Shown: piece by piece, positions 52,890 to 62,733 of the stretch
How positions within the stretch are numbered: the stretch's first letter is position 1
How the letters are laid out: the number at the start of each line of letters is the position of its first letter
Source of the DNA: Myrmaecium sp. VS I D KN 1
Taxonomy: Eukaryota > Ascomycota > Dothideomycetes > Valsariales > Valsariaceae
Direction of reading: 5' to 3'
Assembly (NCBI GenBank): GCA_019775845.1
Contig: JADQAV010000009.1
Location: 682,001 to 746,000, forward strand
DNA length: 64,000 nucleotides
Program-made: the position numbers and the translations under genes
Notes under the pieces: generated by a model
Database searches by the model: none
The model's input: the letters and a program-made list of their open reading frames with translations, nothing else
What the model was told of the DNA's origin: nothing

Positions 52890-55747
52890 ATGGGCCTCTT
52901 CAGCAAAGCTGTCCCTCCTCTAGCTGAGAAGGGACCAGTGGAAAAGCAACAAAATCACCGAGAAGAGCCTACCATGGACCAATTCTCCCCAGTCCCCCCA
53001 TCTCTATTCCTTGATGCAGTCGATTCTCAAACACCAGCGACTCAATCAAAGTCACCATCCATCAATGGCTCCATACAGAGCAGTTTCATGGACGACATCA
53101 AGCATGAGGTGATGGTCAACTACCTCTTCCAGCAACAATGCAGCCGCCTGTGGGTCAGTGACGGTAGCGGTGAGGTTGAAGGTGTTCTCCTCAGGAAGAG
53201 TAGAGGAAACTATATGGCCTGCCCTCCGCAATTGGCCCATTCAACGTTTGCGCAATACATCAGTATGATGAATATCCAAGTGAGTTCACTGAAACAAACG
53301 TCTCTCTCCTCTCTAGTTGGCTAAGAGTACTTACTCAGGATTACAGGTCGCCATGACAGTAAACTCGAGGATCATCAAGACATACCTGCAGTGGTCACCG
53401 GAAGCTGTCGATGTGCCCCTAACAAACGGTCTCCGGGTCCAAATTCTACCCACAATCGATGACCTTCCAAGGGCACGGAAAAACCAGTTTGCTGCGTTCA
53501 TCGCGTCGGAGGCAATGTTGGTTGTCTGGGACGACGAAGCCATGAACATTATCGCTCGTGCAAAATCAATTGAGTCGGAGCTTATGGAGCTGGTCTGGAA
53601 GTCCGGAGGAGCGGAGGAGGACGAAGATGCTCCTTCTAAGAAGGGACCTGGTGTTGTCGCTGCCGAAGTGGACGAAGAAAGCGGTGAAATCAAGCCGGAG
53701 GTCAGGCCCACCCACATGATGAACAGTGTTCTTGTGTGTATTACCTTGATCATCGTCGTCGTTATGCTCGGCGCTGGTTTTCGAGAGATCGCTATTGAGA
53801 TAGGGGTAGATGAAGGGTACGCAAGACTTGCGTTTCTCTCGCTCGTCCCCATCCAGATATTCTTCACATTGGTGAGTCCGTGGCCCACGTCCTGATAAGC
53901 ATCCGCTGACTATCGAGCAGTTCTTCGCCCAGGTCATTGTGGGCTGCCTAGCACAGTGTGTCGGTCCAGTGCGGCAAATGACCACAAACTCTCGTTATTA
54001 TTCAGCTTTGCTCCCTCGCCGCATCGTCGGCAATGCCCTTCCACATGTTACTATACAGTGTCCGGTGTACAAGGAAGGGTTAGCTTCGGTCATTGCACCC
54101 ACCGTGAAGTCCATCAAGCAAGCCATGTCAACATACGAGCTCCAAGGTGGATCTGCCAACATGTTCATCAACGACGATGGTCTTCAGCTCCTCAGCGAAG
54201 AGGAACGACAAGCAAGAATTGACTTCTACGCTGATCATGGTATCGGCTGGACGGCCCGGCCTAAGCATGGAGAACAAGGATTTGTGCGGAAGGGGAAATT
54301 CAAGAAGGCTTCTAACATGAATTTTGGCCTCATGCTGTCGAACAATGTGGAGGAGAAGCTAGCCCAGGTCTCCCGACCTCAAGGTTGGACGCAGGCCGAT
54401 GAGGCAAGAGAATACGACCGGTGTTTGAAGGAGGTCTTACAAGAGAACCCGCGGGCGTGGGCTGACGGGAACATCCGTGTTGGAGATTATATCCTCCTCA
54501 GTAAGCCAAAGTTGGTCAATTCAACCTTCCTTCCGCTAATGCTCCCTTTCAGTTGATTCCGACACCCGTGTTCCGGCAGACTGCCTCCTGGATGCAGCAA
54601 GCGAGATGGAGCAATCCCCCGAGGTCGGGATCATGCAGTTCTCTTCTGGTGTGATGCAGGTCGTGCATACTTACTTCGAGAATGGGTACGTAACCGTCAT
54701 CTGCCGCGTGCAACGGCCCGAGCTAACACGATCTCTAGTATCACGTTCTTCACCAACCTCATCTACACTGCCATCCGGTACACCGTCTCGAACGGGGACG
54801 TCGCACCTTTTGTCGGGCATAACGCGATCTTGCGGTGGTCTGCCATTCAACAGGTTTCCTTTTCCGACGAAGATGGTTACGAGAAATTCTGGTCGGAGTC
54901 ACACGTGTCAGAGGACTTTGACATGTCGCTTCGCCTTCAGGTCAACGGGTACATCATCAGACTCGCCGCTTGGGCCGGTGATGGTTTCAAGGAAGGTGTC
55001 TCCCTGACTGTCTACGATGAGCTCGCCCGCTGGGAGAAGTACGCGTACGGCTGCAACGAGCTACTGTTCCACCCGATACGTTTTTGGCCTGTCCGTGGAC
55101 CGTTTACCCGACTTTTCCGTCAGTTCCTTTTCAGCAATATCCGTTTCACCTCGAAGATCACGATCATATCATACATCGGAACGTACTATGCAATTGGAGC
55201 TGCCTGGATCATGACCACTGCCAATTATTTCGCTGTCGGCTGGTTCAACGGATACTTGGATAAGTACTACATCGACTCTTGGAAAGTCTGGTTCTCCATC
55301 GTCGTCGTCTTCAACGGCCTTGGAAACGTCGCGCTTGCCGTGATGCGCTACCGCATCGGCGATCGAAGCTTCTTCGGTGCCTTGATGGAGAACTTCAAAT
55401 GGGTCCTCATGCTCGCGATCTTCCTCGGAGGCTTGTCTCTCCACGTGTCCCAGGCGATTCTGGCGCACATGTTCGAGGTGAACATGACCTGGGGAGCGAC
55501 GTCCAAAGAAGCCGAGTTCTCCAACTTCTTCCTCGAAGTTCCTAAGGTGCTGAAGCGCTTCAAGTTTAGCATCGCGTTCGCGCTGCTGGGAATCGTCGCC
55601 ATGATCGTTCTGTCGACGGCCGCGTTCGTGCCGTACGACTGGAAGATTACGGATTTCGTCGCGATCTTGCCCATGGCTACCGTCACCGTCAGCCATCTCC
55701 TCCTCCCTATTGCCTTGAACCCGGCCCTCATGACTTTCTCTTGGTAG
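52890..55747 (+). CDS. GT2 family processive polysaccharide synthase
   Basis: Five exons (52890-53279, 53347-53871, 53921-54500, 54553-54685, 54739-55747) encode 878 aa. A conserved N-terminal region precedes two membrane segments (about 254-275 and 290-315). The cytosolic GT2 domain has TIQCPVYKE, NDDG near 389, a DSD metal-binding motif at 500-502, SED at 600-602 (acceptor/base) and DELARWEKYAYG at 636, the counterpart of QxxRW. Several membrane helices close the protein. This is cellulose/hyaluronan-synthase-like architecture. Fungal relatives include mixed-linkage glucan synthase candidates and GT2 enzymes needed for hyphal growth on surfaces; which product is made cannot be told. It is divergent from GH16 and upstream of CHS5. 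Confidence 0.9.
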
Positions 55748-58499: not shown

Positions 58500-60026
58500 T
58501 GTGCTGATGCTGCTACTTTTGCTGCTGAGAGAAGAAAGGCGAGAGGATAGATGGATGGGCTATTTATATCTGTAATAGGGTTGTTAATCCTGCTCCTCCT
58601 ATGGGATGGGGACGGTTGGAGGCCCTTTCGAGTGCCTGGTGGGAGTGCATGGTGGTGACTTACTTTCGCGGAGCAGCACTTCTTGTAAGAGGGAATTGGC
58701 GTGAGATGTTACTCTATTCGCAAGCGGCATCATGCTCTATTATATACGCTGATGGTTCTGCTTATCGCGCCCGGCGCCTTTAGCAAGCCTCGGATGCATA
58801 TCTCTCAACAAGGCTACAGTATTGCTCTGCTAAGGTACAGTAGCTGAGGTACTCACATCCTACCCCGCTATGCCCCTCACCGGGGAGAGCTCATCAGGGT
58901 CCCCCGAAGGCCGCGGTGACCCGGCGCGGTAACTTAGCGGCGGATTCCCCTGGGGCGGGGGGGGACTCTTTTACCAGATCCAGCAAAAAAAGGATGCCCT
59001 GGCACTGGGACAGTGAGGGGGACCCTGACTGATCGCCGGGTAGCCCGGGGAGGGGAAGGACGAGCTCGAGCTGATGACGGGACTCGAGCTTCCAGATTGT
59101 GAGCGGGGAAGGGCGGGTTTCCTTATCGTTTCATCCGCTCCTCGGCATCCGTTTATCTCAGTCTGTGGATTCACCTACAGTGAGTGCTGCTGTGTATACC
59201 GGACAGGACTATAGTACTTACAGTAGTGAAGGGGACTTGAATCCCGGCGAAAGACTGTGCAGATATGGGACTTGCTTGTCTTTACTCCAATCCACTGTAT
59301 TCGAATAGATCTACTAGTAGACACTCTGGAGCACGTCAGTCAATGAGAAGGAAGGGTGATGAAGCCCTTGCCGAATCGAGTAAGCATTTCCCTCCCAGGC
59401 TGAGTCAGCCATCATCTCCCTCCCTATCCGCCGGACACTCCCATCTCGTTCTCCTCCATACTTATCTTCATCGTCGACTCCCGCCGTGACTGTCAGACAT
59501 TTCGCTTGCAGTCAGGATGAGCCATACACCTGTTCCAGTTTGCCGTCTCAGATCGTTCGCTGGTGTAGGACCTGCGTTTCCCACTCACTTCTCTTAAGAC
59601 ATACCATTTTCAAGTCGTATACGATGTTCACATGTCCCTTCTCGCAATGTTATTTATCGAAAGAGCACGGCTTCTACTTTCACTGTCAAATGAACTTATG
59701 CATCTGTTGTGTTTTATCGTTCAGCAGTTCACGTTGCGAGTTCAAGGTGACGTTGCGACCAGTGTGACCAAACCGCGCCCGTTGTTGTAAGAGAGGACAA
59801 AATGGGCAGTGTCGAGTTACGTCTCTTGCCCTGTCACACGGCTCTGTGACGGCGCTAGCCCCAGCCCTACATATATTCTGGCCGGCCATGGGTCTTCGAA
59901 GACTTACTGATCACAACAAATTCCCATCGCCGTGGACGGTCGGATTCTCCTTCGATCTGCTCTCGGTTCCCTTCCATCTTATCGTCTACAACCCAGCTTC
60001 CTCCAAAACCACAGTATCCGCAAGCT
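58500..60026. other. Divergent spacer
   Basis: Promoters of the cupin gene (-) and the 688-aa gene (+). GTAC/TAC-rich words occur at about 58800-58865 and 59185-59330, with a G-rich run near 58950. No gene is supported. Confidence 0.5.
58561..58568 (-). promoter_or_regulatory. TATA box of cupin gene
   Basis: TATAAATA on the minus strand, 62-69 bp before the cupin ATG, a near-consensus core element at a fitting distance. Confidence 0.55.
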
Positions 60027-62093
60027 ATGGCGCAGGGTCAAGGGCCTTCCAGTGAGATGACTGAGTTTGCACGTCTACACCTCGACAAACGCGGTCTCCA
60101 GTTGTGTGCTGTCCCGACCAGCTACTACCCATCTACTCTAGAATTCCGACCCTCGGTGGTCGACGACTTAGAGGGGTTGCAGCTGGCGACAGCGAGTCTA
60201 GCGACCGCGAACCGCCGTCCTTTCCCACGGACCTCGGATGCCTCCACGGAAACCTCCCTAGAGTGTTTTCTTTACTCTTTTATGGCGGATCATGTCTGTC
60301 GTTTGCGAACCGATGCTGAGCTATCAGCTTCTAGGAGTCTCGACCGCACCCTACGCGATCAGGTTTGTGCGCAGGTCGACGTGTTTGAGGCTCTCCTGGC
60401 TTGGGATGTAGCCGTTTTTAACGGCGCTCTCCAAGACCGCGTCTATGTGGCTTGGGTCGTCGCTCAGGAAGACTTCACCGGCAGTGTGGAGCGCCTCTGC
60501 GACCCGCTTGACTCAAACACCCCGTTGGATCGAGTATGCATATTGCTAAACACAAATTGTTTTTCTGGAACCTTGCAGGAGTTTTGGGGCATGGTATTTC
60601 ACCTACTTGTGCACGCCTTCGAAATCATCTCCTTCGATCTGAAAGGGGAACAATGTACCCTAGCACCTGATCGGTCTGCACATCAGGATCGTTTCTACCA
60701 CCTGATGGCAGTATGCAAAATATCCCTGAGAGACGCAGTGCAACTCCTTGACGAAGACAAGCCCTCCGTGGACAAGCTCCTAGCGGAGTTCTGGGAGGCT
60801 TACGGGGATGGAGACTCTGAAGATGTCGTCAAATCTCCAGTTGACCGTTCCATACCCGATACGGAAGGCGCCAAAAAGACGAATGAAGAACCAACATCTG
60901 TACAACCGCAAACTCTTTTCGAGCCCATTGTCCCGCCTCAGCCTCTCGGACTTTTAAGAAGCCCAAATACTGATACCAAAGACTCACGGAACGCCCCTCA
61001 AAACGTTCCCACTCAGCCCTCAACAAAGCTGATAAATATCGATGATGATGAGGCTGGAGGAGCTGTGGGTGGTACAGTGCGCGAGTACAATCGGCTACCT
61101 GGTCAACTGACTGATCTCCTGACTCCAACTTCACCTGTGAAGACCGCACGGAACCCAGGCTTGCAGAGGCCTTTGAGTCCCATCAGAGGGCATTCGGAGT
61201 TCCACGGGAATATCGAGTATTTCTACCCGGACGACGAGGAGGAGGAATCGTTCGTGTCGGGATGGAAAAATCCAAGCACCTTGACCAGGTATGGCCATGC
61301 CACCGAAGCGCTCAGTCTACAGCAACAGCACAACGGCCAGCCTCGTCGAGAAGAGACTAAAGCTGTAGCAGGCTCTGATCGGGCTTTCCAATCGGCTGGT
61401 CATTCAGTCGACATGGTAGAACTCCACAACGAAGTCACCGCGAGTCGCGATTTTGCCTTAGGGGAAATCCAAGATGCTCAAACTCGCACGCATCTCGTCC
61501 CGGGGTTAGACGACAGTGATGCAGTTCCCGTGATCGGTCTTGCGCCCGATCAGAGTCATGGGCAGCCCGCTGGATTGAGGTGGCGTGTGATGGGGCTTCC
61601 TCCGAGCCCCTACGCTCACCACATCCCTCTGGCACAGGTTCCATTGAGTTCCGAGGAGAAAGAGATGTTGGTAGCTTGCGTCCAGGAGAGCACGGAGGCG
61701 GCCTACGATCTTATTGCGACTGTTTCGGATCGAGACACCGAGCTAATGTGCGAGCTGGAGAAGGTCTATCAGGCTGGACTAGAGGGGAACAATGGTATGA
61801 ATGGGGAGCACGACTCGACATCTGCTTCTAAGGGACATGTCGTCCGTGCCCAGAGTCCGATCACACATCTAGAGCTCTCAAAAGGACGGAAGGATTGTTC
61901 TGGGTCACGGGTACAGCACGGTGCGGTTGCGACAACAGAAGAGGGTCCGCAGCCGAATGAGCCCGAAGGGATCGTTACCGAATTCCGGAAGCTGATGCGC
62001 GAGCTGGGCGGGGTGAATGCTGCTCTGCCTTGGCTGCTGTCTCTGCTCGTTATCCGCATGGTCCTCGAGGCTGTTGGTCTCCATACTTCTTAG
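60027..62093 (+). CDS. 688-aa protein with degenerate SprT-like N-terminal domain
   Basis: A single exon of 688 aa. Residues about 115-215 resemble fungal SprT-like zinc peptidases: VFNGALQDRVYVAWV, then DRVCILLNTNC, then VFHLLVHAFEII. The last should be HExxH; here residues 192-196 are HLLVH, so the catalytic Glu is gone and the domain is probably inactive. The middle (270-480) is disordered and acidic. The C-terminus has a hydrophobic stretch (LPWLLSLLVIRMVLEAVGL) that could be a tail anchor or a buried helix. I assign no function; the peptidase link rests on motif resemblance alone. Confidence 0.65.
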   Translation: MAQGQGPSSEMTEFARLHLDKRGLQLCAVPTSYYPSTLEFRPSVVDDLEGLQLATASLATANRRPFPRTSDASTETSLECFLYSFMADHVCRLRTDAELSASRSLDRTLRDQVCAQVDVFEALLAWDVAVFNGALQDRVYVAWVVAQEDFTGSVERLCDPLDSNTPLDRVCILLNTNCFSGTLQEFWGMVFHLLVHAFEIISFDLKGEQCTLAPDRSAHQDRFYHLMAVCKISLRDAVQLLDEDKPSVDKLLAEFWEAYGDGDSEDVVKSPVDRSIPDTEGAKKTNEEPTSVQPQTLFEPIVPPQPLGLLRSPNTDTKDSRNAPQNVPTQPSTKLINIDDDEAGGAVGGTVREYNRLPGQLTDLLTPTSPVKTARNPGLQRPLSPIRGHSEFHGNIEYFYPDDEEEESFVSGWKNPSTLTRYGHATEALSLQQQHNGQPRREETKAVAGSDRAFQSAGHSVDMVELHNEVTASRDFALGEIQDAQTRTHLVPGLDDSDAVPVIGLAPDQSHGQPAGLRWRVMGLPPSPYAHHIPLAQVPLSSEEKEMLVACVQESTEAAYDLIATVSDRDTELMCELEKVYQAGLEGNNGMNGEHDSTSASKGHVVRAQSPITHLELSKGRKDCSGSRVQHGAVATTEEGPQPNEPEGIVTEFRKLMRELGGVNAALPWLLSLLVIRMVLEAVGLHTS

Positions 62094-62572: not shown

Positions 62573-62715
62573 GGGCGTGTAGTAAGTTTCACTCACACAG
62601 GAATTGAGTATTCCCTTGTCCGTCTGAGACTGACTCTCTTCTTCTTCATCAGGCTCAGTGGTAGAGCGCCCGCTTTGCATGCGGGAGGTCCAGGATTCGA
62701 TCTCCTGCCCGTCCA
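62573..62715 (+). tRNA. tRNA-Ala (TGC anticodon) interrupted by a GT-AG segment
   Basis: Bases 62653-62715 form tRNA positions 10-73: D arm GCTC/GAGC, anticodon loop TTTGCAT (anticodon TGC, alanine), variable loop AGGTC, T arm CAGGA-TTCGATC-TCCTG and acceptor CCCGTCC plus A73. The matching 5' acceptor GGGCGTG and bases TA (positions 1-9) lie at 62573-62581. Between them is a 71-bp segment, 62582-62652, beginning GTAAGT and ending in a C/T tract plus CAG. Joined, the tRNA is 72 nt, with G1-C72, G2-C71, G3:U70 (the alanine identity pair), C4-G69, G5-C68, one U6/C67 mismatch and G7-C66. Nuclear tRNA introns normally sit at 37/38. It may be functional after unusual splicing, or be a disrupted pseudogene. 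Confidence 0.75.
62582..62652 (+). other. Intron-like insertion in tRNA-Ala
   Basis: A 71-bp segment with a perfect GTAAGT donor, a CTGAC branch-like site at about 62630, a polypyrimidine run and a CAG acceptor. It resembles the spliceosomal introns of protein genes in this window, not a tRNA intron. Confidence 0.6.
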
Positions 62716-62723
62716 GTCCTCTC

Positions 62724-62733
62724 TTTTTTTTTT
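62724..62733 (+). terminator. RNA polymerase III terminator
   Basis: A run of ten T starts 9 bp after the tRNA 3' end, a standard strong Pol III stop. Confidence 0.8.

Follow-up and report, generated by a model that had tools for sequence, protein, structure and literature searches.

The genome of Myrmaecium sp. VS I D KN 1 contains a tRNA-Ala(UGC) gene that is divided into two exons by 71 nt bearing the signals of a spliceosomal intron. We think it somewhat probable, judging from the sequence, that this locus is a nuclear tRNA-Ala(UGC) gene with a 71-nt spliceosomal GT-AG intron of the U2 type at position 9/10 and that the intron would be removed from the tRNA precursor. The locus lies in a stretch of 64,000 nt of one contig, which we call the window. 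Joined to each other, its two exons form a 72-nt tRNA-Ala(UGC) (Table 1). The interruption is at 9/10 and hence is not at 37/38, the canonical site of eukaryotic tRNA introns; exon 2 of the window copy has no intron at 37/38. An earlier note on this DNA had described a layout of 9, 71, and 63 nt, and its coordinates, lengths, and borders all stand.

Table 1. The split tRNA-Ala(UGC) gene, the signals of its insert, and the intact sister gene (positions are those of the window except for the last line)
Feature	Position	Strand	Basis or remark
tRNA-Ala(UGC) exon 1, nt 1-9 (GGGCGTGTA)	62573..62581	+	Same sequence as nt 1-9 of the intact gene on C19
Candidate spliceosomal intron, 71 nt, GTAAGT...CAG	62582..62652	+	Donor, branch, and acceptor signals together
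5' splice site GTAAGT	62582..62587	+	Sequence
Branch-point motif CTGAC (branch A 19 nt upstream of the insert's last base)	62630..62634	+	Sequence
Pyrimidine-rich stretch and CAG acceptor, without a T4 run	62635..62652	+	Sequence
tRNA-Ala(UGC) exon 2, nt 10-72, anticodon TGC	62653..62715	+	Same sequence as nt 10-72 of the C19 gene once spliced
B-box-like GATTCGATC	Inside exon 2 (62653..62715)	+	Sequence
T10 run, Pol III terminator-like	62724..62733	+	8 nt past the end of the tRNA
Intact sister gene for tRNA-Ala(UGC); 24-nt intron at 37/38	L002 1444-1539 = C19:554081-554176		Own-genome search

The two exons fit together as one tRNA. With the 71 nt removed, ARAGORN calls a tRNA-Ala(tgc) with a 72-nt cloverleaf, a UGC anticodon, and the G3:U70 pair. 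The native window sequence yields no ARAGORN call at the split locus, and the Rfam family RF00005 recognizes just part of a tRNA in the native DNA, from model position 9 to 63 of 71, with 41 bits at 62652-62707. Six of the seven positions of the acceptor stem are paired, G3:U70 included, which agrees with the earlier note and can be read directly from the sequence. The mismatch in this stem, U6/C67, is found in the window copy and in an intact sister gene on contig C19 alike, and so is not decay of the window copy. The borders of the insert are ambiguous by one base, after nt 9 or after nt 10, and only the break after nt 9 gives GT-AG. This leaves A as the last base of exon 1, where the usual base before a donor is G.

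How readily would such an arrangement arise by chance? The GTAAGT start, the pyrimidine tract, and the CAG end that had been pointed out before are all present, and a CTGAC branch-point motif can be added to them. A loose set of signals (a GTRNGY donor, a CTRAY motif whose A lies 13-40 nt before the end, and a YAG acceptor) occurs in 1 of the 127,858 71-mers on both strands of the window, and that 71-mer is the insert. A Markov simulation placed the loose set at 27 of 3,000,000 positions, and at 2 when GTAAGT was required. A random 9-mer would agree with nt 1-9 of the C19 gene, as exon 1 does, with a chance of about 4^-9. The earlier claim that the borders fit a tRNA beyond chance is thus upheld by the 9-nt identity and the simulation: the structure is real, and its fit is well beyond chance. 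When length is left free, intron-like patterns are barely more frequent in the window than expected (GTRNGY form, 42 observed versus 41 expected; GTRAGT form, 10 observed versus 4.9 expected, with 10 also the highest count of 30 simulations), and therefore the argument rests on the exact match to the tRNA borders. T runs in the insert reach 3 at most. The absence of T4 is uninformative, since 838 of 1,229 71-mers around the locus also lack it, as do five introns that we modeled in neighboring genes.

Judged by its signals, the insert would pass as an ordinary intron of the host genome. A GT donor, a branch point, and an AG acceptor of the U2 type are all found in it, and the comparison is with the five modeled introns of two neighboring genes. 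These have the donors GTGAGT, GTGAGT, GTAAGC, GTACGT, and GTACGC, lengths of 49-86 nt, CAG or TAG ends, and CTRAY in four of the five, a likeness that is partly built in because the exon-joining script requires GTR and YAG and favors such signals. Codon statistics yielded no introns fit for use, and the two genes were modeled instead by exon joining, with a check against Pfam. Three of the five introns (67, 53, and 86 nt) are well inside the Pfam domains DUF7928, Glyco_trans_2_3, and CHS5_N, each of which the joined protein matches over nearly its full length; this gives those three models independent support. One of the two genes, at 52890-55747, encodes a DUF7928 and GT2 glycosyltransferase protein and was modeled with four introns of 49-67 nt. 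The neighboring Chs5 protein has CHS5_N, fn3, and BRCT domains, with Chs5p/CHS5 as its best PDB matches. Both the Chs5 and the DUF7928/GT2 families are fungal, and by these genes the host is a fungus.

The earlier note had suggested searching the genome for other tRNA-Ala(TGC) genes, and this search turned up an intact one on contig C19, the sole other tRNA-Ala(UGC) found in the genome. The C19 gene is unbroken at 9/10 and carries a 24-nt intron in the anticodon loop that is absent from the window copy; the exons of the two genes are identical at 72 of 72 positions. Their flanks tell a different story. For the 5' flanks the alignment score lies at the 95% level of 200 shuffles; for the 3' flanks it is below the shuffle mean. 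Since the flanks align no better than shuffles, the two loci do not resemble a recent segmental duplicate. The exons have nonetheless undergone no drift. An intact gene of this kind is one of the two things that the earlier note had named together as counting against its reading, and the existence of the C19 gene also means that the split copy is not the sole source of tRNA-Ala(UGC); it is dispensable and could be dead.

Is the insert one of a family? Introner-like elements are new spliceosomal introns gained in fungi and are multi-copy by definition. We searched the genome (25.66 Mb in 66 contigs) for a second copy of the 71 nt and found none in the 25.7 Mb at E up to 10, the sole match being the insert itself; the search skips very common words and scores only first-look candidates, of which there was one, such that a strongly diverged copy could escape it. 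An introner or introner-like element calls for many near-identical copies, and with one copy found this reading is not supported. The earlier note had proposed a new intron, for example an introner-like element, that landed in a tRNA gene. The part about an intron in a tRNA gene is supported by the break at 9/10 with its full signals and gains from the intact sister with identical exons and from the likeness to the introns modeled nearby, while the introner part is not borne out. The alternative in the earlier note, an unusual pseudogene, may still hold.

The genome was also surveyed for tRNA genes and further split cases. ARAGORN found at least 76 non-redundant tRNA genes on the loci covered, a lower bound because the family search scored 63 of 614 candidates and such finders miss split genes. 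Among the 62 Rfam tRNA matches listed, 61 cover model positions 1-71, and the window locus is the only partial one among them. One of the 76 genes is on contig C50, has AT-rich flanks, and is perhaps mitochondrial; the first 10 kb of this contig contain no complete open frame of at least 150 aa under code 4. A 44-bit tRNA match on the minus strand at L064 201-271 (C1:70996-71066) contains two N, has no ARAGORN gene, and is untyped. Strict patterns for a split tRNA, with a GTAAGT, GTGAGT, or GTATGT donor, 42-72 nt, YAG, and a conserved D arm, matched at 35 places (11, 14, and 10 by donor), which is fewer than in backward controls (23, 26, and 22). At the 34 places other than the window locus, Rfam at E up to 1 (and ARAGORN for the first 10) revealed no split tRNA. 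Three Rfam matches at the pattern places are below their gathering scores. One of these places has an intact tRNA-Ile on the opposite strand, some 300 nt away, and a 5S rRNA gene, L095 7-126 (C17:613706-613825), overlaps the start of another. No split-gene pattern turned up in scans of viral contigs and prokaryotic genomes, which is what one expects for a fungus.

Could the split gene be expressed? The A box is now in exon 2, at about 62651-62661 and with one base changed, and the insert separates exon 1 from it. Under established Pol III rules, an A box in this place would make transcription begin within the intron, and the RNA would lack exon 1. Among 75 tRNA leaders, some of which are one base out of register, the leader that precedes exon 1 ranks at the 11th percentile, and against the background it ranks at the 61st; it scores no better than an alternative anchored in the intron. 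The displaced A box and this unremarkable leader stand seriously in the way of simple Pol III expression. The start would have to be set by an upstream element, or else a Pol II transcript would have to span the locus. The 3' end appears ordinary: 59 of the 75 other tRNA genes have T4 or longer within about 40 nt, at 0-36 nt, and the T10 run at 8 nt puts the presumed terminator in the normal place. A same-strand open frame of 744 codons (59859-62093) ends 480 nt upstream of the gene and has no Pfam match at E 0.001, and a second same-strand frame starts about 0.8 kb downstream. CCAAT- and TATA-like words can be seen by eye upstream of exon 1.

What else could the locus be? It could be a dead tRNA gene that was interrupted recently, when a spare copy took up an intron or DNA that resembles one, with exons that are still identical for lack of time. 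We hold this to be possible but unlikely. The intact sister on C19, the displaced A box with its unremarkable leader, and an insert and a case each found once all speak for such an end, but the flanks indicate that the duplication is not fresh, the search found no source copy of the insert, and the exons match at every one of 72 positions. Less probable again is a spliced Pol II RNA, the 5' UTR or read-through of a same-strand neighbor, in which the tRNA would be a passenger, possibly freed by RNase P and RNase Z. Borders that leave a perfect tRNA go unexplained here unless the intron was gained inside the tRNA gene, and the T10 Pol III terminator has been retained. Same-strand open frames do flank the locus, CCAAT- and TATA-like words precede exon 1, and spliceosomes act mainly on Pol II RNA according to the available part of PMC8527467.

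The remaining explanations have far less to recommend them. It is very improbable that the insert is an ectopic tRNA intron cut by the tRNA-splicing endonuclease at a bulge-helix-bulge (BHB), in the way known from red algae and archaea. The one geometry tried yields a partial BHB, with 3 of 4 central and 3 of 3 outer pairs, but 22% of 20,000 random inserts reach at least 3 of 4 central pairs, no BHB is seen in the MFE fold, and the full spliceosomal signals would be a coincidence. Chance juxtaposition or an assembly error strikes us as barely credible. The source is a single assembly, but the locus is on a contig of 1.7 Mb, and exon identity to the C19 gene and the joint rarity of the signals argue against an accident of either kind.

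If the window copy is instead a tRNA gene with a spliceosomal intron, as we prefer to read it, its expression may proceed as follows. A precursor starting upstream of 62573, either a Pol III product or a portion of some Pol II transcript, would hold both exons. The spliceosome would join 62581 to 62653, and RNase P and RNase Z would trim an ordinary cloverleaf equal to the tRNA of the C19 gene. The product would then be used as a tRNA.

How might a tRNA gene have come by such an intron? We speculate that it arose through RNA: an intron could have been reverse-spliced into a tRNA whose 37/38 intron had already been spliced out, and the product could then have been copied back into DNA. An origin of this kind would account for the missing anticodon-loop intron in the window copy. 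When tRNA genes are grouped by a shared D-arm stretch, the members of each of the 16 groups agree in having or lacking a 37/38 intron, with gene length taken as the measure; some of these groups are one family divided by a one-base trim. By contrast, the two Ala(UGC) genes, whose exons are identical, differ in their 37/38-intron status. This difference, set against the uniform groups, fits copying through RNA. However, the genes for Thr(CGT) and Arg(CCT) have the same anticodon, non-identical exons, and mixed 37/38-intron status, and plain intron loss or gain therefore fits as well. 37/38 introns are frequent among the 76 tRNA genes, and their length varies between sister genes. The complete scenario, in which a working and spliceosome-dependent tRNA gene owes its intron to reverse splicing into a mature tRNA free of its endonuclease intron and to copying back into DNA, is one that we put forward tentatively and regard as rather doubtful on present sequence grounds.

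Splicing of tRNA and splicing of mRNA are regarded as separate worlds with separate enzymes. If our reading is true, a tRNA gene that needs the spliceosome breaks this separation, and the spliceosome is able to act on a tRNA precursor. It would also mean that an intron gain has been captured with its target and product known to the base. Among the titles and abstract openings listed by full-text searches, with few subscription papers among them, none described a spliceosomal intron within a nuclear tRNA gene, and the available part of PMC11782384 does not mention one in a tRNA.

Several known systems share features with this locus. Ectopic or permuted tRNA introns outside 37/38 are described for Cyanidioschyzon merolae, the Guillardia theta nucleomorph, and archaea, by a BHB and endonuclease route, and many G. 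theta tRNA introns have no defined BHB (PMC3978253 and PMC8450103, in the parts available). These introns resemble the window insert in being at positions other than 37/38, whereas GT-AG, a branch point, and a pyrimidine tract go unmentioned in the same parts of both papers. Introner-like elements differ from the insert, of which one copy was found, in being multi-copy. U6 snRNA genes of fission yeast carry mRNA-type introns (Tani and Ohshima 1989, 1991, cited in the available part of PMC10484740), for which the same part of that paper gives reverse splicing as a proposed origin. Like the window insert, they are spliceosomal introns in a short, non-coding Pol III RNA gene of a fungus. However, U6 is a component of the spliceosome, and its place close to the catalytic site accounts for its exposure; a tRNA has no such place. 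The U6 snRNA of the host genome, a single match, is uninterrupted, unlike that of fission yeast, and this, like the absence of a second split tRNA among the places scanned, counts against our reading. Nuclear rDNA of lichen fungi contains spliceosomal introns that are removed from Pol I rRNA in yeast (PMC8527467, in the part available, and Bhattacharya et al. 2000 cited there). These too are spliceosomal introns in a structural RNA that is not made by Pol II, but the RNA is an rRNA, made by Pol I from multicopy genes. As far as the available portions of these sources go, the introns of U6 snRNA and of rDNA are the nearest precedents for a spliceosomal intron in a tRNA gene.
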